A DNA stretch of 64,000 nt, taken from Bacteroidales bacterium. Lineage in GTDB: Bacteria > Bacteroidota > Bacteroidia > Bacteroidales > B18-G4. The notes under the pieces were generated by a model, which saw only the letters and a program-made list of their open reading frames with translations, had not been told where the DNA came from and searched no databases. The stretch covers positions 104,581-168,580 of the forward strand of contig JAGYMZ010000002.1 of the NCBI GenBank assembly GCA_018400295.1. Direction: 5' to 3'. Shown here piece after piece: positions 37,381 to 47,727 of the stretch. Both the position numbers and the translations under genes were made by a program. Position 1 is the stretch's first letter, and every line of letters starts with the position of its first letter.

Positions 37381-38739
37381 TTGGAAGATCCTGATAGTGC
37401 TTCGTTTTTGTTGAATGTGTGCTCTTTCCCGGTCTATGCATGGCTGAAGCCTTTTACCCTGCCGGTTCTTCTGGAATTGATCGCTTTACTTCTGCTTTTG
37501 ACGGGCTCGGCCCTGATATCCGGATCGGAGATTGCCTTTTTTTCCCTGAACCCGCCCCATATGAAGGAATTGAGAGATCAACCAGAAGGGCGGAACAAAC
37601 TGGTCCTTACTTTGCTTGAAAACCCAAAGAAGTTGCTGGCCACCATACTGATATCCAACAATTTCATCAATGTGACACTGGTCATTCTGTCGACATACAT
37701 AGCCAGTGAGCTGTTTGTCATGGGCCCGGTGATTGAATTTGTTGTGCTGGCAATTGTCATCACCACGCTCATACTGTTGTTCGGGGAGGTCCTGCCGAAA
37801 ATGTATGCCACCCGGTTCAGTTTGAAATTTGCTCGTTTTATGTCGCCGGTGATACATTGGCTTTCATGGATTTTCTTTCCTTTGAGCGTCATCCTGGTTC
37901 GGTCTACTTCCTTTATTGATAAGAGGCTGTCGAAGAAAAGGCAGAACATATCCATGAGCGACCTTTCCGATGCCATTGAGATCACTTCGGATGATACCAC
38001 TCCCGAGGATGAGAGGAAAATACTGAAAGGGATCGCGAAATTCGGCGACATCGAAGTAAAGGAGATCATGAAATCCCGGATTGATGTGGTGGCTGTGGAT
38101 ATTCAGACTACTTTTGAAGATCTGCTGAAAGTGATCACCGAATCCGGATATTCCAGGATCCCGGTTTACCAGGAGTCGTTCGACCGGGTCGAGGGCATAC
38201 TGTATGTTAAGGATCTTTTATCCCATCTCGGCAGAGGGGATAAATTCCAGTGGTCCGTGCTTATCCGGGATGCTTTTTTTGTACCGGAAAACAAGAAAAT
38301 TAATGACCTGTTGCAGGAATTCCAGGAGAAGAAGATCCACATGGCTGTTATCGTTGACGAGTACGGGGGCACATCCGGTATCGTAACACTGGAAGATATC
38401 ATTGAAGAGATCGTGGGAGAGATCAGTGATGAGTTTGATACCACAGACGATGAGGTGGCTTTCTCCCGTATCGATGCCCATAATTACATTTTTGAAGGGA
38501 AAACAACCATCAATGATTTTTGTAAGATCGTGGGTATTGAAGGAGATGTTTTTGATGCGGTCAAAGGGGAATCGGATTCCCTCGCCGGACTTATTCTTGA
38601 GATCGAAGGCAAGATCCCTCCCAAGGAAACCGTTGTCAGGTTCCGGAACTTTGATTTTAAGGTTCTGGCAGCAAACGACAGGAGAATTCAAAAGATCAGG
38701 ATAACCATACATGAAGCAAAGGATCAAACGGAACATTAG
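37381..38739 (+). CDS. gldE: Gliding motility-associated CNNM/CBS transmembrane protein GldE
   Basis: ISGSEIAFFSLNPPHMKEL CNNM domain, CBS pair, CorC-like C-terminus; followed by gldD with overlap; TTG start in the track. Confidence 0.9.
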   Translation: MEDPDSASFLLNVCSFPVYAWLKPFTLPVLLELIALLLLLTGSALISGSEIAFFSLNPPHMKELRDQPEGRNKLVLTLLENPKKLLATILISNNFINVTLVILSTYIASELFVMGPVIEFVVLAIVITTLILLFGEVLPKMYATRFSLKFARFMSPVIHWLSWIFFPLSVILVRSTSFIDKRLSKKRQNISMSDLSDAIEITSDDTTPEDERKILKGIAKFGDIEVKEIMKSRIDVVAVDIQTTFEDLLKVITESGYSRIPVYQESFDRVEGILYVKDLLSHLGRGDKFQWSVLIRDAFFVPENKKINDLLQEFQEKKIHMAVIVDEYGGTSGIVTLEDIIEEIVGEISDEFDTTDDEVAFSRIDAHNYIFEGKTTINDFCKIVGIEGDVFDAVKGESDSLAGLILEIEGKIPPKETVVRFRNFDFKVLAANDRRIQKIRITIHEAKDQTEH

Positions 38740-39316
38740 TGCAACCATGGTTGTAATGCTTTTTCTTTCCACGGTTATTTTCTCCTGTGGACGCGATAAC
38801 CCTGTGCCCAAACCCCGGGGATACTTCCGTATAGACCTTCCGGAAAGAAATTACCGTACCTTTGACACGAATTTCCCTTATCGCTTTGAGTATCCGGTAT
38901 ATACACGCATTTCCGGTGATCCGCATGCCCCGGAAGAGCCATACTGGATCAATGTCGATTTCCCACGCTTTGCTGGCAGACTGCATCTTAGCTATAAAGA
39001 AGTAAACGATACCAACCTGGTCCATTACCTGGAGGATTCCAGGAATTTTGTCATGAAACATATTCCCAAAGCCACTTCCATAAACGACAGCCTGATCATG
39101 GACCGGGAAAAGGAAAAATTCGGATTGGTCTATGAGATATACGGGCCCGGCGTGGCTTCACCTTATCAGTTCTTTTTAACCGACAGCGCAAGGCATTTTC
39201 TCAGGGGCGCATTGTATTTCAATGTGGTCCCGAATAACGATTCCCTCCGGCCGGTGATTGATTTTATCCATAAGGATATCATACACCTGATCAGAACATT
39301 CGAATGGACTGAATAA
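38711..39316 (+). CDS. gldD: Gliding motility lipoprotein GldD
   Basis: FSCGRDNPVPKPRGYFRIDLPERNYRTFDTNFPYRFEYPVY motif; synteny with gldE. Confidence 0.93.
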   Translation: MKQRIKRNISATMVVMLFLSTVIFSCGRDNPVPKPRGYFRIDLPERNYRTFDTNFPYRFEYPVYTRISGDPHAPEEPYWINVDFPRFAGRLHLSYKEVNDTNLVHYLEDSRNFVMKHIPKATSINDSLIMDREKEKFGLVYEIYGPGVASPYQFFLTDSARHFLRGALYFNVVPNNDSLRPVIDFIHKDIIHLIRTFEWTE

Positions 39317-39476: not shown

Positions 39477-41921
39477 ATGAACCTACAAACCTGCTATCCG
39501 AATGATGTGTCCATGGCCCGGGCACCCCGGCTTCAACCAGGGCCGGTTATCCGTAACTGCCTGACGAATTTTTCAATCCGGTTTTTTGGGATATTCATTA
39601 TCCTGATCATGATTGCAGCCGCCGGACATGCACAGGATAATATTTACGCCCGTGTTAAATTTCAGACCAACCCGGCTGAGTTCAATGCGCTTCTTCGCGC
39701 TGGCCTTCCGCTGGATGATGCCAGCATATCCCGGTCCTATGAAGTGATCGCCGAATTGTCCGATCGCGATATTCAGGTCCTTACAGAAAAAGGCATTTCT
39801 CACACGGTCCTTATTTCCGACCTTTCCCGTTTCTATGTGGAACGGAACGAGGCATACCGGAATTATAGTATTGAACGGGATGTTTCCAGCGAATATCCCG
39901 TACCGGAGGATTTTGAACTGGGCAGTATGGGGGGGTTTTGCACCCATGCCGAAATGATCGCCCATCTGGATAATATGTATTCAAAGTATCCCGGCCTCAT
40001 CACGGAAAAGGCCGTTGCAGGAACAACCCTGGAAGGCAGGGAAATATACTGGGTTAAGATCTCCGATAATCCTAACCAGGCGGAAGATGAGCCGGAAATA
40101 TTTTATAATGGCATGCACCATGCCCGCGAACCTATTGGTATGCAGCTGTTGCTTTATTACATGTATTACCTGCTTGAGAATTACGATACCGATGAAGAGG
40201 TTCAGTACCTGGTCAATAACCGGGAGATGTATTTCATCCCGGTTGTCAATGTGGACGGATATATATACAATGAATCCACCAATCCCAACGGGGGCGGTAT
40301 GTGGAGAAAGACACGCCGGGACAACGGCAACGGGTCATACGGTGTGGACGCCAACCGGAATTACGGGTATATGTGGGGATATGATAACTCAGGATCCTCG
40401 CCCGACCCCTGGGATGAAACCTATCGCGGCCCTTATGAATTTTCAGAACCGTGTGTCCAAACGCTCCGGGATTTCTGTATTGACCATGCGTTCGGTATCA
40501 CCTTGAATTATCATTCCTACAGTAATTTGTTACTTTACCCATGGGGATACATACCGGATCCATGTCCCGATGATGAAGTATTCCAAACCTGGTCGGTACA
40601 CATGACCAGGGATAACGGATATACATACGGGCCGGGGAGCACTACCATATATCCGAGCAATGGCGGCTCGGACGATTGGATGTACGGGGAGCAGGAAGAA
40701 AAGGAGCTGATCTATGCCTATACTCCCGAAGTAGGGAACAGCAATGATGGTTTCTGGCCGTCTGTCGGCCGAATTGTCCCGCTGTGCCAGGAAAATATGC
40801 TTGCCAATTTCCTGGCTGCCCATTTTACGGGTGCTTATGCGACCGTGGAAGACCAGTCTCCTCCGGCACTGGAGGAATTGGACGGCAACATTGATTTTAT
40901 GATCCAACGGTTGGGCCTTCAGGATGAGGCAACCTATACCGTATCCCTCGATCCTTTGTCGCCTGAAATCCTTGCCGTTGGTGATCCGGTTGCGTTTGAC
41001 CAGCTGGAATTGCTGGAGGAAAGCAACGGAAGCATATCCTATACGCTCGACCCGGCAATTCAAAGTGGAACGGTTGTTGAATTCCTGCTCAGCCTGGATA
41101 ACGGGACCTATGCTTTTACCGATACTTTGAGAAAAGCATTCGGGGAGCAGGAGATCATTTTCGAAGATGATGGCAACAATATGGAAAACTGGACATCGGT
41201 TCACTGGAACATCACTTCAGAAGCATACCATTCCGCTCCCTTTTCCATCACGGATTCCCCCAATGGGAACTACAACAGCTATACCAATAGCTCGGTGACC
41301 ACCATCCAGGAAATCGACCTGGGGGATGCCGTATCGGCGGTACTGAATTTCTGGGCCCGCTGGGACATAGAAGCCGGATGGGATTATGCACAGGTGAAGG
41401 TTTCCACCAACAACGGGGCCACCTGGACCCCACTGGAAGGGAACTACACAAAAACCGGCAACAGCAACCAGGCACCGGGCCAGCCCCTCTACGATGGTAC
41501 CCAGCTTTCCTGGGTAGAGGAGGAGATCAGCCTGGATGATTTCCTCGGGGAACAGATCCTGCTCCGCTTTACCATTATTACAGATGCCTATGTGAATGAA
41601 GACGGGTTTTATTTTGATGACCTGAGCGTTGGTATAATCCCTGGAGGGGGTGTTGGGATGACAGGTCCAGATAAAGCGGATGCGGTTTTTGACATCTATC
41701 CAAATCCCGCCACCCGGCGCATCAACATCAATACTCTTCCCGGCCATGGAGATCCCTATATCCTCGATGTATTCAATGCCCACGGTCAACACCTGGAACA
41801 ATCACAGATCCCTGCAGGTTCAAGCAAACTGGACATCCGTGGCTGGCATCCCGGTGTCTATTATCTGAGAATGCATGCCCCGGGAATGAAAACCGCGGTT
41901 AATAAGCTGGTGGTTTATTGA
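39477..41921 (+). CDS. M14 family zinc carboxypeptidase with T9SS C-terminal sorting domain
   Basis: YNGMHHAREPIGMQLLLYYMYYLLENY, PVVNVDGYIYNESTNPNGGGMWRKTRRDNGNGSYGVDANRNYGYMWGYDN, C-terminal FDIYPNPATRRININTL…GVYYLRMHAPGMKTAVNKLVVY. Confidence 0.93.
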   Translation: MNLQTCYPNDVSMARAPRLQPGPVIRNCLTNFSIRFFGIFIILIMIAAAGHAQDNIYARVKFQTNPAEFNALLRAGLPLDDASISRSYEVIAELSDRDIQVLTEKGISHTVLISDLSRFYVERNEAYRNYSIERDVSSEYPVPEDFELGSMGGFCTHAEMIAHLDNMYSKYPGLITEKAVAGTTLEGREIYWVKISDNPNQAEDEPEIFYNGMHHAREPIGMQLLLYYMYYLLENYDTDEEVQYLVNNREMYFIPVVNVDGYIYNESTNPNGGGMWRKTRRDNGNGSYGVDANRNYGYMWGYDNSGSSPDPWDETYRGPYEFSEPCVQTLRDFCIDHAFGITLNYHSYSNLLLYPWGYIPDPCPDDEVFQTWSVHMTRDNGYTYGPGSTTIYPSNGGSDDWMYGEQEEKELIYAYTPEVGNSNDGFWPSVGRIVPLCQENMLANFLAAHFTGAYATVEDQSPPALEELDGNIDFMIQRLGLQDEATYTVSLDPLSPEILAVGDPVAFDQLELLEESNGSISYTLDPAIQSGTVVEFLLSLDNGTYAFTDTLRKAFGEQEIIFEDDGNNMENWTSVHWNITSEAYHSAPFSITDSPNGNYNSYTNSSVTTIQEIDLGDAVSAVLNFWARWDIEAGWDYAQVKVSTNNGATWTPLEGNYTKTGNSNQAPGQPLYDGTQLSWVEEEISLDDFLGEQILLRFTIITDAYVNEDGFYFDDLSVGIIPGGGVGMTGPDKADAVFDIYPNPATRRININTLPGHGDPYILDVFNAHGQHLEQSQIPAGSSKLDIRGWHPGVYYLRMHAPGMKTAVNKLVVY

Positions 41922-41999
41922 TCCACGCCAATCTCGCGATTGAATTTTTATTTGGCCCATACAACCCTATCGGGATTTAATTCCCCTGTTAAATGACAG

Positions 42000-42075: not shown

Positions 42076-42633
42076 ATGAATAATTTATTAATCAAAAAGG
42101 AACTGGATATCTCTGTACCCATATGGACCAACGAGGATTTGATCCGGGGTTGCCTCAGGAATGATCAATGCTGTCAAAAAGCCTTGTATGAAAGGTATTG
42201 CGATATTATGTATTCCAAATCATACCGCATTACCGGGGACCGGCACCTGGCCAGTGATGCCCTGCAGGAAGCTTTTATTCAGGTATTCCGGGATATCGGA
42301 CAGCTGAAGGAACCTGCTTCCCTGGGTGCCTGGATAAAAAGCATCGTTGTGCGGTCTGCGCTGAAGACGGTCAGAAAATACAAGGCATTGAAATTTGAGG
42401 AGCTGAAACCCAGTCATACCCGTATCGTCTGGCAGGTGCCTATGAGCGGGGAAGCGCTGGAAAAGGCCATTCTCAGTTTGCCGCCGGGTTACCAGGTGGT
42501 TTTCCTTCTGGTCGAAGTAGAGGGGTACCGTCATCATGAAGTTGCAGAAATGCTTGATATTTCAATAGGGACATCAAAATCCCAGCTTTTTCATGCCAAA
42601 AAAATGCTGAAGGATATACTTAAAGAACACTGA
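42076..42633 (+). CDS. RNA polymerase sigma-70 family (ECF-type) sigma factor
   Basis: From ATG 42076: NEDLIRGCLRNDQCCQKALYERYCDIMYSKSYRITGDRHLASDALQEAFIQVFRDIGQ; sigma4 LPPGYQVVFLLVEVEGYRHHEVAEMLDISIGTSKSQLFHAKKML. Confidence 0.93.
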   Translation: MNNLLIKKELDISVPIWTNEDLIRGCLRNDQCCQKALYERYCDIMYSKSYRITGDRHLASDALQEAFIQVFRDIGQLKEPASLGAWIKSIVVRSALKTVRKYKALKFEELKPSHTRIVWQVPMSGEALEKAILSLPPGYQVVFLLVEVEGYRHHEVAEMLDISIGTSKSQLFHAKKMLKDILKEH

Positions 42634-42635
42634 TC

Positions 42636-44072
42636 GTGGAGTGGAAAGAAGAAAATAGAAGCATACTTGAACAGGGTATCCGGGATCTTCCCCGGCACAA
42701 TGCCCCGGCGGCTGTATGGAATAACCTGGAAATTGAGCTGTTCACTGTTTCTGAAAAGGACTTGCCCAGCCATACCCCTCCTTATTCCACCTGGCAGGGC
42801 ATAGAGCTGGGATTGGCCGGCTTCCGTGAGAAAAAATCATATCCCAGGAAAAGAAGGGTATGGCTTATCGTACTTCCCCTCGTGATCGCTGCAGGTGTTC
42901 TTCTTTTTCTGCACAGGGAAAACCGGTTTGTTCGGGATGGTCTCCCTGTTCGGGTGGAAGAGGGGAATACCCATATCCCCGGCAAACCGGTTCTGGAAAC
43001 CTCCCCGGGTTGGAGCCGCATGAAGCCGGTATCCGTTGCCCTGATCCAGCGGGAAAATCCATATCCCGGAGAAGCCGGGGCTGCGGCTTTTCCTCCCATT
43101 ATCTCCTCAGGGGAAGGCATGCATCTAAGGAAGGGCAATGCAGCATCGTTTACTGCCATCTTTGCCCATGGACCGGATGCCGGCAGTCTGGAAGACAGGG
43201 CAGGCCTGGTTCCCGTTTTGATGAAAAATCTGCCTGCAAACAAGGTATATGCGAACAGCAGATACCTTTTCCCGGAAGGGGACGCCCGCTTGCTGGCCAA
43301 CCCTGACCCGGACGGCAAGGAGGAAGTTTATCTCTCCGGTAAGGACAAATATGAAACATGCCCCGGTTTTACCAGGAATTCCCATTCATTGGCAGGTTTT
43401 TCTGCCGGCTATGGATTTTTTCCCTCCGGGCAGGAAGAAAGCGGGGGCAGCATGGAATACTGGTATGAGCTCAATGCAGGATATACCTACCAAAAAAGCA
43501 GGTTTTATGCCGGGGCAGGCCTGGGGGTCATTTTTTCAGCGGATGAATCGGAAGGGGAATACAGCTATTTAAAGAATGAGCTTATCAATAGCTATGAATA
43601 CGTAGATTCCATTTACATCGACCCGGTTACAGGGAATGTCCACTATTATACCACAAATGTGAATGTCTATGATTCCGTATTGCATGAGGAAACTGTTCCC
43701 ATTTCAACAAGCTATACCTATCTGCAATTGCCTGTGCATGCAGGCATAAACATATGGTCCCCGGGGAAATTCAGTGTCGGGTTTACTGTGGGGGCATCCT
43801 TTATTGCGGAGATGGGCAGGAACGAAAAGGTCCCTGCTTACGACCTGAACGGGGCCCGTCTGCTGAGCGAGGATCGCAGCAGGGTTAAAAGAAACTCCTT
43901 TTATATCAAGGCATTTGCAGGTCCGGACCTGATGTGGAACATTTCGGAAAGGATGAAAGTGTTTTTGGCATCCCGCTTTTCCCTTTTTCCGGAAGGTGTC
44001 TATGCAGAAAGCGCAAAAGGCCGTTCTTTTTCAGTAGGCATCCACGGAGGCGTACGGTTCAGGATCCCCTGA
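42636..44072 (+). CDS. Putative dual membrane-spanning anti-sigma factor: N-terminal cytosolic segment + single TM + periplasmic linker + C-terminal outer-membrane beta-barrel
   Basis: GTG start 2 bp after the sigma stop. RKRRVWLIVLPLVIAAGVLLFLHREN TM helix, then alternating aromatic barrel strands ending GVYAESAKGRSFSVGIHGGVRFRIP. Confidence 0.7.
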   Translation: MEWKEENRSILEQGIRDLPRHNAPAAVWNNLEIELFTVSEKDLPSHTPPYSTWQGIELGLAGFREKKSYPRKRRVWLIVLPLVIAAGVLLFLHRENRFVRDGLPVRVEEGNTHIPGKPVLETSPGWSRMKPVSVALIQRENPYPGEAGAAAFPPIISSGEGMHLRKGNAASFTAIFAHGPDAGSLEDRAGLVPVLMKNLPANKVYANSRYLFPEGDARLLANPDPDGKEEVYLSGKDKYETCPGFTRNSHSLAGFSAGYGFFPSGQEESGGSMEYWYELNAGYTYQKSRFYAGAGLGVIFSADESEGEYSYLKNELINSYEYVDSIYIDPVTGNVHYYTTNVNVYDSVLHEETVPISTSYTYLQLPVHAGINIWSPGKFSVGFTVGASFIAEMGRNEKVPAYDLNGARLLSEDRSRVKRNSFYIKAFAGPDLMWNISERMKVFLASRFSLFPEGVYAESAKGRSFSVGIHGGVRFRIP

Positions 44073-44139
44073 TGCAACCTTTTCTACATTTGTCGTCCCT
44101 ATCAGTAAAAGACCAAAAAAAAATTTAAAAATTCGCATT

Positions 44140-47100
44140 ATGAGAAATTTACTCCTCACATTATTCGTTTTCACATGCATTTCCGGTATTTTTTCACAGG
44201 AGGCAGGTCCCCGGGATCGTGCTCCGCAAATCAATACTGACCTGGACCCCCTAACGCGGGATGCATGGGATGTGCAATTCAATTTTCCGGTGGATACGGC
44301 ATATACCCAGACCGGAATAGAAACCGACGGCACATATCTATATTGCGTTGGCTGGAACGATGAACGCATTGTTAAATACGACCTTCAGGGGAATGTCATC
44401 GGGGATTTTACCATACCCGGCGCATACAAGCTGAGGGACCTGGCTTACGACGGGCAGTATTTTTACAGTGGTTTGGGCTTTGAAAACCTAATGCTGGTCA
44501 TGGACTTTACCAATGAGGTACTGGTGGATTCCATACCCCTTTCGTTCAGTTTCCGGGCCATGGCTTATGACCATGACCTGGATGTGTTCTATGCCAATAA
44601 CTGGAGTACGGATATCACCATTTTTGAGGCAGACGGAACCATAGTGGGCAGCATAGATATTGGCGATTGGGAATACAAACAATTTTACGGTTTTGCTTAT
44701 GACGGCTGGTCAGATGATGGTCCGTTTCTATGGGGCTTCAGCCAGGATGGACTGAACGGGAACACCCTGGTACAGATCAAGCTCCCGGAAGGCACTGAAA
44801 CCGGCTTTGTGATGGACCTTACTCCAATGGCCATCGGCAGTCCCTATACACCCCTGGCCGGAGGGTTGTTCACACATGAAAACCTGGTGGGCGAAACCGT
44901 TACCCTGGGCGGGTTGATGCAGAACAATGCAGTATTCGGCCTGGAGCTGGGGGATGCTTTTTGGAACCCGCCCGTGGATTCCTGCTATGGGCCGGTATTC
45001 CTGCATGCTGCATTGAAAGACAGCATGAGCACACAACTGACATGGGGTGCACCCCAATTCGCCGTACTCAATGAAAATTTTGAAGGGGCCCAGTTCCCGC
45101 CCCAGGGCTGGTCTGTGCAATCCCAGGGCAATGGCTGGAAAAACGGCGATACGGTTGTCCATGCCGCATGGGAAGTTCCCCGGTGGGATTCGCATTTTGC
45201 TTACACGGACGATATAGAAAACCCCTCCAATGGTTGTTGCGATTACCTGGTCACCCCGGCTTTGATCATCGACCATACCTATGATTTCTACCTGAAATTC
45301 GAAAGCTATTATAACGGGGCCGCCGGGCATGAAGCATACGTCAAATACAGCCTGGATGACGGAACTAACTGGGAGCTTTTACACACATTGAGCCCGCAAA
45401 ACGAATGGGCCAGCCTGAATATTGACCTTTCTCTGATCCAGGGGGCCGATTCGGCCAACCCCATACGGTTCGCCTTCCACTCCGACGACGGGCAAGGCGA
45501 TGGATCGGGCTGGGTCATTGATAATGTCCTGGTCCATTCCGACAATGTGCTCATTGAACCCAACAGTTACCAGGTATTCAGGGACGGTTCCCAGGTAAAT
45601 TACCGGCCGGTGACCGGCTTGAGCTACCTGGATGAGGAGATCATACCGGGGACCTATGAATATGAAGTCTATGCGATCTATGATTCCTGTTCCCAGTATG
45701 GCGGCCCGGTATACATTGAGATCCCTGACCGTCCGGCACCTCCGCCATACACCGGACCTTGTTTGCCCCCGGAAAACCTGCAGGCCGGGACAGAGCTTAC
45801 AGATGTGTTGTTGAGATGGAATTCCCCAATGGGCTCGATCAGGCAATGGAAAAATGCACCCGAAACGGATCCATTTGCCGAGTTTTCCCCGGAAAGCAAA
45901 AGGATATTGCCTAACCGGGCATCCAGGGAATCCTGGGATGTACAGTTCCAGTTTCCCGTGGCTGTGGGGGGCGGTGAGGCCGGTGTGGAAACCGACGGAA
46001 ATTTCATTTATACATCGGAGTGGAACGGCGATAATATTCATAAATATTCTCTTGACGGGACCCACATGGGAACCTTTTCCTTTCCCCTGAGCGATAATAT
46101 CCGGGATATGGCCTATGTAGAAAGTGAGGGGTATTTTTATGGGACCAACGGTAGCAACCAGATCATTATCATGGATTTTGAAACGCTTTCCTTTATCGGA
46201 AACCTGGTCCTTAGCGCTAATGCCCGGGGGATTGCTTATGACAACGACCTGGATGCCTTTTACGTGAACAATTGGTCAACCGATATTATGCTGATCGACA
46301 GGGAAACGGGGAGCTGGATCTCTTCATTCCCCACCGGGTTGTATGGTAGTTATTACGGTTTTGCATACGATCACTGGACAGACGGTGGACCCTATTTGTG
46401 GGGGTTTTCCCAGGATGGTATCGGATATGCCACCCTGGTGCAGATTGCTCTGCCCTCTGGCCTGGAAACCGGTTTTACAATGGATTTGAGCTTTTTGTCA
46501 ACCAGTGGTACCGGTTTGGCCGGGGGTCTGTATACCCAACCGGATATGGTGCCCGGGACGGTTACCCTGGGTGGGGTGATACAGAATGAAACCATATTCG
46601 GCCTTGAACTGGGCGAAGCTGTCTTTGACCAATTTCTTGAAGGGTATAATGTATACCGCGATGCTTCCCTTTTGAACTCCCTGCCCGTACAGGATACTTT
46701 TTATTTGGATGAAGGGCTTGCCCCAGGGACATACAGCTATGAAGCCACGGCTGTTTATGTGGATTCCCTGGGCGTGCCCGTCTGCGAATCCGAACCGGCC
46801 GGGCCGGTGGAAATTGAAATAAGCAACGGGCTGGTCCTGGGTGGAAATGTCTTTGCAGGGACTTCCAAGCTGGAAGAAGGGTTTGCATATGGGTACCAAT
46901 ATACTGAAGGTGAAGTGGTCAGCGAAACCGTGGCTTTGGTTGACGATTTGGGATATTATTTCTTCTTCCCTTTTTCAAGCAACGATTATTATGTTAAAAT
47001 CAAACCCGCACCTGCTTCGGCTTTTTATGATGATTACATCCCCACATACTATGGGGATGTGATCCACTGGGAGGATGCCGGGCTGATCCAGCTGACATCG

Positions 47101-47727
47101 AACATCTACAATGCGGATATCCGGATGTTACCCTTTTCAAGCGGTACTTCCGGCCCCGCATCGATCCAAGGGTTGATCTCCCGGGAGGAGGGCAGCGGCG
47201 TTACCTCCCCGGCCCCGGATGTCCCGGTGATGTTGTTCAATGAAGCGGGCGAATGCGTGGCATTGGATTATTCCGGTGCCCAGGGGGCTTTTGAATTCAA
47301 CGGTATCGGCCACGGAACTTATGGATTGCTTGCAGAAATGGTTGGCAAACGCATGGACCCTGTGCATTTCACCCTGGACGATCAAACCCCGTCGGCCGGT
47401 AACATCCATTTCCTCATCCAGCACGACCAGATCGTATTGGGTATGGACGATCCTTTGCCCGGCCGGGTGGAGTTCATCAGTGAAATATATCCCAACCCTG
47501 CCCGGGAGCATGCTCGGATCCGGATCGACCTGAAGGAAAAAACCCTCATTTCTTTTTCTGTGTATGATGCCCGGGGCAAACAGGTCCGTGGTTTCATCCG
47601 GTCACTGGAGTCCGGGCCAAATACCTTCAGCCTTGATTTATCGGATATGGATAACGGGCTATATTACGTCCTGATCGTTTCGCAAGGGGAAAGGATCGGT
47701 CAACAAAAATTGATCATTTCGAAATAA
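44140..47727 (+). CDS. Large secreted protein with duplicated beta-propeller-like module, choice-of-anchor-J-like domain and T9SS C-terminal sorting domain
   Basis: Two homologous segments (RDAWDVQFNFPVDT… and RESWDVQFQFPVAV…); jelly-roll segment EGAQFPPQGWSVQSQGNGW…GWVIDNVLVHSD; C-terminal SEIYPNPAREHARIRI…NGLYYVLIVSQGERIGQQKLIISK. Confidence 0.85.
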   Translation: MRNLLLTLFVFTCISGIFSQEAGPRDRAPQINTDLDPLTRDAWDVQFNFPVDTAYTQTGIETDGTYLYCVGWNDERIVKYDLQGNVIGDFTIPGAYKLRDLAYDGQYFYSGLGFENLMLVMDFTNEVLVDSIPLSFSFRAMAYDHDLDVFYANNWSTDITIFEADGTIVGSIDIGDWEYKQFYGFAYDGWSDDGPFLWGFSQDGLNGNTLVQIKLPEGTETGFVMDLTPMAIGSPYTPLAGGLFTHENLVGETVTLGGLMQNNAVFGLELGDAFWNPPVDSCYGPVFLHAALKDSMSTQLTWGAPQFAVLNENFEGAQFPPQGWSVQSQGNGWKNGDTVVHAAWEVPRWDSHFAYTDDIENPSNGCCDYLVTPALIIDHTYDFYLKFESYYNGAAGHEAYVKYSLDDGTNWELLHTLSPQNEWASLNIDLSLIQGADSANPIRFAFHSDDGQGDGSGWVIDNVLVHSDNVLIEPNSYQVFRDGSQVNYRPVTGLSYLDEEIIPGTYEYEVYAIYDSCSQYGGPVYIEIPDRPAPPPYTGPCLPPENLQAGTELTDVLLRWNSPMGSIRQWKNAPETDPFAEFSPESKRILPNRASRESWDVQFQFPVAVGGGEAGVETDGNFIYTSEWNGDNIHKYSLDGTHMGTFSFPLSDNIRDMAYVESEGYFYGTNGSNQIIIMDFETLSFIGNLVLSANARGIAYDNDLDAFYVNNWSTDIMLIDRETGSWISSFPTGLYGSYYGFAYDHWTDGGPYLWGFSQDGIGYATLVQIALPSGLETGFTMDLSFLSTSGTGLAGGLYTQPDMVPGTVTLGGVIQNETIFGLELGEAVFDQFLEGYNVYRDASLLNSLPVQDTFYLDEGLAPGTYSYEATAVYVDSLGVPVCESEPAGPVEIEISNGLVLGGNVFAGTSKLEEGFAYGYQYTEGEVVSETVALVDDLGYYFFFPFSSNDYYVKIKPAPASAFYDDYIPTYYGDVIHWEDAGLIQLTSNIYNADIRMLPFSSGTSGPASIQGLISREEGSGVTSPAPDVPVMLFNEAGECVALDYSGAQGAFEFNGIGHGTYGLLAEMVGKRMDPVHFTLDDQTPSAGNIHFLIQHDQIVLGMDDPLPGRVEFISEIYPNPAREHARIRIDLKEKTLISFSVYDARGKQVRGFIRSLESGPNTFSLDLSDMDNGLYYVLIVSQGERIGQQKLIISK

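Follow-up and report, generated by a model that had tools for sequence, protein, structure and literature searches.

A predicted envelope-spanning Dma/Reo-like anti-sigma factor encoded between an ECF sigma factor and a type IX secretion cargo in Bacteroidales: a proposed three-gene sensor and output unit

Known systems and the three-gene locus

In cell-surface signalling of the FecIRA type, an outer-membrane event reaches an ECF sigma factor via a separate TonB-dependent receptor and an anti-sigma factor. Closer to the subject of this study are the dual membrane-spanning anti-sigma factors Dma1 and Dma2 of Bacteroides thetaiotaomicron, which are paired with the sigma factors Das1 and Das2 (ECF21) according to PMC13088901 (and Pardue et al. 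2024, cited therein), where the Dma family is described as Bacteroidota-wide. The Reo protein of Phocaeicola is an anti-sigma factor that spans five compartments and controls surface NigD lipoproteins (PMC13114119, PMC9308784), and in Porphyromonas gingivalis PorA, a protein of type IX secretion (T9SS), passes a signal from the surface on to PorXY-SigP without a known connector (PMC7712824).

The locus analyzed here lies in a stretch of 64,000 nucleotides (the window) of contig JAGYMZ010000002.1 from a Bacteroidales bacterium (GCA_018400295.1), and its gene order, architecture, cargo sorting domain, cargo-Dma linkage and promoter-like motifs were computed. A preliminary description had proposed a two-gene unit; its observations stand for the first two genes listed below, while the T9SS cargo, a shared promoter motif and a duplicated sigma-binding motif lay outside its scope.

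42076-42633, + strand: ECF sigma factor, 185 aa
42636-44072, + strand: Dma/Reo-like anti-sigma factor, predicted to span the envelope, 478 aa (synteny, AlphaFold2, hydropathy)
44140-47727, + strand: T9SS cargo, 1195 aa (PF18962 1.3e-11, TIGR04183, NF038128)

The sigma ORF is matched by Pfam families PF08281 (2.2e-14) and PF04542 (1.7e-10), and its product shares 43-55% identity with the sigma factors of five sister loci. Re-reading of the ORFs reproduced the described gap of 2 bp between the end of the sigma gene (42633) and the GTG start of its partner (42636). The pairing of an ECF sigma factor with a Dma-type partner is found again in most homologous loci, and this repeated two-gene layout argues that the adjacency is not due to chance. 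Shortly upstream of the sigma gene are located a GldD lipoprotein gene (38711-39316) and a gene for an M14 carboxypeptidase with a T9SS sorting domain (39477-41921).

As in Dma1 and Dma2 of B. thetaiotaomicron, the partner combines an N-terminal sigma-binding domain (putative here), one transmembrane (TM) helix, a long disordered tether and a C-terminal barrel with an adjoining ECF sigma factor, a likeness of layout; the B. thetaiotaomicron sigma factors belong to ECF21, and the window sigma is placed as ECF by Pfam. Unlike Dma1 and Dma2, it carries two tandem putative sigma-binding motifs. The three-gene setting recalls that of Dma2, except that the third gene of the Dma2 operon encodes the DUF4943 protein BT_1557, and here the gene codes for a T9SS cargo and has a predicted promoter to itself. 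Similar to EcfO-Reo of Phocaeicola vulgatus and Bacteroides fragilis, the anti-sigma factor is predicted to reach from the cytosol to the surface, and the sigma factor is predicted to drive secreted surface proteins (NigD in EcfO-Reo, one NigD being numbered beside ecfO-reo), but the NigD outputs are surface lipoproteins, in contrast to the T9SS-sorted multidomain protein of this locus. With PorA-PorXY-SigP the locus shares the connection, here predicted, between an ECF sigma factor and a surface protein that bears a T9SS domain, although in P. gingivalis the signal passes via a two-component system and no barrel anti-sigma factor is identified. The proposed transfer of an outer-membrane event to an ECF sigma factor is shared with FecIRA, from which the locus departs by one predicted chain across both membranes and by having no adjoining TonB receptor. 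A dedicated T9SS cargo, a predicted second promoter and a repeated motif are the differences from known Dma/Reo systems.

Predicted architecture of the anti-sigma partner

The 478-aa partner itself has no Pfam or NCBIfam match and no sequence relative in the PDB; the barrel family OMP_b-brl_2 (PF13568) is matched by 15 of its 21 aligned homologues. An AlphaFold2 model (from 23 sequences) comprises, from the N-terminus, helices 5-16, 25-35 and 50-60, a TM helix at 71-94, a disordered region at 95-235 and eight strands, and the following features were assigned:

42663-42746, + strand: putative sigma-binding motif copy 1, aa 10-37, LPRHNAPAAVWNNLEIEL (helices 5-16, 25-35)
42747-42821, + strand: putative sigma-binding motif copy 2, aa 38-62, LPSHTPPYSTWQGIELGL (helix 50-60)
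42846-42917, + strand: TM helix, aa 71-94, basic residues on its N-terminal side (AlphaFold2, hydropathy)
42918-43343, + strand: disordered periplasmic tether, aa 95-236 (142 aa)
43347-44066, + strand: predicted 8-stranded outer-membrane beta-barrel, aa 238-477 (AlphaFold2, Foldseek)
43503-43757, + strand: predicted long protruding hairpin, strands aa 290-328 and 335-374, with YEYVDSIYIDPVTGNVHYYTTNVNVYDS (AlphaFold2, conservation, homologue model)

Several elements of the preliminary description were borne out by these predictions. Consistent with its claim that there is no signal peptide, the best 19-residue hydropathy near the N-terminus is 0.21, and the TM helix that it had placed near residue 70, behind a basic flank, corresponds to the sole TM-like segment (maximum hydropathy 2.57, about residues 74-93), preceded by KKSYPRKRR. 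A C-terminal barrel is likewise predicted, with eight strands over aa 238-477 and pLDDT values mostly between 73 and 96; Foldseek comparison with the PDB returned OmpA, NspA, OmpX, Ail and OmpW, with TM-scores of 0.45-0.61 (by target). The linker, claimed to be of low-complexity Pro/Gly type, is indeed predicted to be disordered (pLDDT mostly 30-45) and is the least conserved part of the protein, but with 21% Pro+Gly and a mixed composition the label "low-complexity" is too strong. The Dma-like reading as such came through two of the three outcomes set beforehand against it, as a barrel is predicted and a cleavable signal peptide is absent; the third concerned sigma binding by the N-terminal segment. 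A homologue with one putative sigma-binding motif (L093) yielded the same AlphaFold2-type layout, including the eight-stranded barrel. With its single TM helix, long disordered tether and C-terminal barrel, the partner is, on predicted layout, best filed as a Dma/Reo-like anti-sigma factor, and the protein alone is a further member of an already known, Bacteroidota-wide kind.

The putative cytosolic sigma-binding segment consists of a conserved helical motif, LPxxxPPxxxWxxI, present in two tandem copies ahead of the TM helix in the window subfamily, the label "sigma-binding" being based on the position and conservation of a short motif, not on a solved complex. Profiles of the two copies (26 proteins) match each other with an hhalign probability of 98.5 (E 2e-15), a match favoured by the choice of profile windows on the tryptophan; the one motif present in other Dma proteins aligns with copy 2. 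Among relatives, the copy number ranges from 1 to 6, with 1-3 being common. Two copies are also present in short TM partners of Saprospiraceae and Dyadobacter, where the nearest sigma factors (L058-L076) are paired with proteins of 190-225 aa without a barrel and followed by a secreted protein of ~300 aa, whose L058 copy, the sole one scanned, has no Pfam match. One Saprospiraceae locus (L076, 5545-6540) encodes six tandem putative motifs before a TM helix, again with no barrel. A Bacteroidota-type sigma/two-motif locus was also observed on a contig filed as Thermoanaerobaculia (Acidobacteriota; L071), a placement that is probably a binning error. In yet other loci (L079, L087, L104, L126, L127, L088, L100, L118, L124), a sigma factor and a short TM partner are accompanied by a secreted protein that is encoded separately and ends in a barrel-like region; barrels beside short sigma-binding TM proteins in Flavobacteriia and Cyclobacteriaceae were considered as a split Dma, but profile comparison gave a probability of 12.6%, and homology is therefore not claimed.

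The protruding hairpin is formed by barrel strands 3 and 4, of ~39 residues each (39 and 43 residues in the L093 model), and is predicted to extend far past the membrane on the outer side. Its conservation is at least that of the rest of the barrel, and the outer part of the two strands matches their membrane part in this respect (mean information 1.85-1.96 vs. 1.15 in strands 1-2). Surface loops of barrels are usually variable, and conservation of this one therefore makes a partner likely. The protein may sense the state of the outer membrane directly, as the preliminary description had suggested.

The T9SS cargo, its linkage to Dma and its promoter

The third gene and its flanking sequence contribute four further features:

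41959-41987, + strand: ECF promoter predicted for the sigma-Dma operon: ATACAACC, with ACAACC at 41961-41966 (-35 like), a 17-base spacer and CCCT at 41984-41987 (-10 like)
44072-44100, + strand: ECF promoter predicted for the cargo gene: ATGCAACC-N17-CCCT, with the -35 element directly against the stop codon of Dma (own-genome pattern search)
46816-47415, + strand: cargo core domain, YIPTYYGDVIHWEDAG..., linked to Dma loci (26-row alignment, 45% mean column identity)
47485-47718, + strand: type IX secretion sorting domain, cargo aa 1116-1193

The cargo is composed of an N-terminal hydrophobic signal-like segment, propeller-like repeats, a choice-of-anchor J domain, the core domain and the sorting domain, the last scoring above the curated cut-offs of both PF18962 (45.1 bits, cut-off 27) and TIGR04183 (39.5 bits, cut-off 23). 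The host genome encodes the T9SS translocon component SprA (2731 bits), and GldD is encoded nearby. The third-gene product would be exported by Sec and T9SS to the surface.

The order sigma-Dma-cargo is maintained throughout the window locus and its relatives, with PF18962 in 26/26 complete third genes. The same order, with a sorting domain (by local HMM) in the third gene, was found in 42 of 42 additional loci that are complete and belong to this Dma clade (HMM E<1e-40), sampled from 60 further stretches of the window's order, these loci representing ~30 genera and >20 families that are kin, so that their effective number is smaller. For comparison, a sorting domain is present in 25 of the 161 remaining ORFs (200 aa or longer) of those stretches, and the whole own genome (2.63 Mb) has 79 sorting-domain matches. 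The frequency declines outside the clade, to 7/11 third genes at Dma E values of 1e-40 to 1e-20 and 0/1 beyond, and there the third gene often differs: its product resembles a lipoprotein or is a serpin, or no secreted protein is encoded; a serpin (PF00079, 3e-105) follows the sigma-Dma pair in Arundinibacter (L119, 10134-11366). In several families, a pair of sigma-Dma-cargo units that differ in type, complete or partial, is arranged in tandem (L139, L142, L143, L150, L152, L155, L157, L159, L161, L164).

Of the 393 genomes belonging to the window's order, 195 have Dma profile matches at E<=1e-10. The earlier characterization of the protein as a divergent member outside gut Bacteroides does not make the protein new, and novelty from mere occurrence outside gut Bacteroides was rejected in view of these 195/393 genomes and of a family already described as Bacteroidota-wide (PMC13088901). 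The strong Dma clade is present in 59/393 genomes, and the cargo core domain (~200 aa, ahead of the sorting domain, common to all cargos of the clade) in 59/59 of them. Among the top 80 places of the core domain, 72 have a same-strand Dma 0-5.5 kb upstream (one Dma position in this count being approximate). The converse is weaker, with the core domain occurring without a strong Dma in 67 genomes, 19 of which lack any Dma (E<=1e-10). In the own genome, two strong core-domain matches are the cargos of its two Dma loci, in addition to one weak partial match, and the four nearest genomes without the core domain gave no Dma match either in a search with the partner sequence. An extra core domain was seen in an ORF right downstream of the cargo gene in several genomes (G003:C99:21502-22086, G004:C139:893-1477, G006:C80:21985-22572). 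Distances between Dma proteins correlate with those between cargos (r 0.41, reached in 0/500 within-genome cargo permutations), for which joint inheritance by linkage is a sufficient explanation. The literature searched, which left most subscription papers outside its reach, yielded no link between Dma and a T9SS cargo.

ECF promoters typically have AAC and GTC elements 16-17 bases apart. The motif CAACC-N17-N[CT]C[TG] precedes the sigma gene in 10/11 loci of the window subfamily (vs. 0.1 expected from shuffles; window copy 41962-41987), with spacing 17 being nearly exclusive (one other case, spacing 10). A spacing-17 motif is also present in the Dma-cargo gaps of the subfamily, in 6/10 by a strict and 10/10 by a relaxed form set after inspecting the gaps (about 0.02 and 0.07 expected), with the reservation, applying to all these counts, that related loci are not fully independent samples. 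Searching the own genome for ATRCAACC-N17-MCCT returned six matches, two of them at this locus (before sigma and at 44072-44100), and none for the reversed control; three of the remaining four overlap predicted ORFs, and this pattern search yielded no genome-wide regulon. In other Dma types, GCAAC[CT]-N15-17-GTC[TA] precedes sigma in 27/71 regions (vs. 0.06 expected), and neither form was found in 33/71 upstream regions searched. A shorter pattern is not enriched in the window (11 matches vs. 9.1 expected), and the case for these promoters is based on position and conservation. The same motif before the sigma gene and before the cargo gene predicts that the sigma factor autoregulates and directly controls the cargo gene.

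Proposed mechanism, alternatives and implications

Overall, we consider it probable that the locus is a three-gene unit in which an envelope-spanning outer-membrane/surface sensor drives its own dedicated surface protein. The ECF sigma factor would be held at the inner membrane by the anti-sigma factor via one or two short helical motifs, with the barrel seated in the outer membrane and its long conserved beta-hairpin exposed on the surface; if the outer membrane or the surface were disturbed, this would be passed on through the tether and the TM helix, freeing the sigma factor. The freed sigma factor would transcribe the operon that encodes it and also, by way of a further promoter of that type, the adjoining cargo gene, whose product would travel via Sec and T9SS to the surface as the main output of the unit. 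Sequestration of sigma, direction and nature of the signal and use of the promoters are what we infer in this scheme, and the surface protein may protect or modify the envelope.

A tentative extension is a closed loop, in which the barrel would in addition have the cargo as its ligand: cargo bound to the hairpin would keep the anti-sigma factor on, and loss of secretion or of the surface layer would leave the hairpin unoccupied and let the sigma factor produce more cargo, so that the unit would monitor one T9SS product. This possibility, which we consider rather doubtful, overlaps with the sensor-plus-output reading, feedback being an addition to it. The near one-to-one pairing of core domain and Dma clade and the pair-specific co-diversification (r 0.41) agree with it, but tight linkage and joint inheritance yield the same pattern without contact; the surface hairpin is conserved like the membrane part, and there is the example of P. 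gingivalis PorA signalling from the surface to PorXY-SigP (PMC7712824), albeit by a different pathway. In its more specific form, a surface homeostat whose hairpin recognises its own T9SS cargo and whose single chain reports this to the cytosolic sigma factor that refills it, the idea appears unlikely; if true, the capacity of each anti-sigma factor for sigma molecules would depend on its number of sigma-binding repeats, which varies from 1 to 6.

That Dma mainly places or anchors the cargo at the surface, with sigma control being secondary, would also accommodate the conserved hairpin and the Dma-cargo linkage, yet a T9SS sorting signal, sufficient elsewhere, is present in the cargo itself, and the sigma gene is kept in most loci along with a conserved promoter motif, rendering this reading highly improbable. 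We give practically no credence to chance neighbourhood of an ordinary sigma factor, a barrel protein without relation to it and a T9SS cargo of a common sort: such cargos are frequent (79 matches in the own genome), but 26/26 and 42/42 complete loci in the same order and matching promoter motifs contradict it.

In the favored reading, of a sensor with its own dedicated output, Dma/Reo, an established type of outer-membrane sensor, is linked with type IX secretion across a large non-gut group of Bacteroidota. In view of PorA, Dma-type proteins are candidates for the kind of mediator that could connect ECF sigma factors with surface proteins of the T9SS. Signals of Dma/Reo proteins and outputs of their sigma factors have so far been studied in gut bacteria, and the outputs known from these are surface lipoproteins; for a large clade of T9SS-bearing relatives, gene order gives a likely answer as to the output, namely one dedicated secreted surface protein per sensor.
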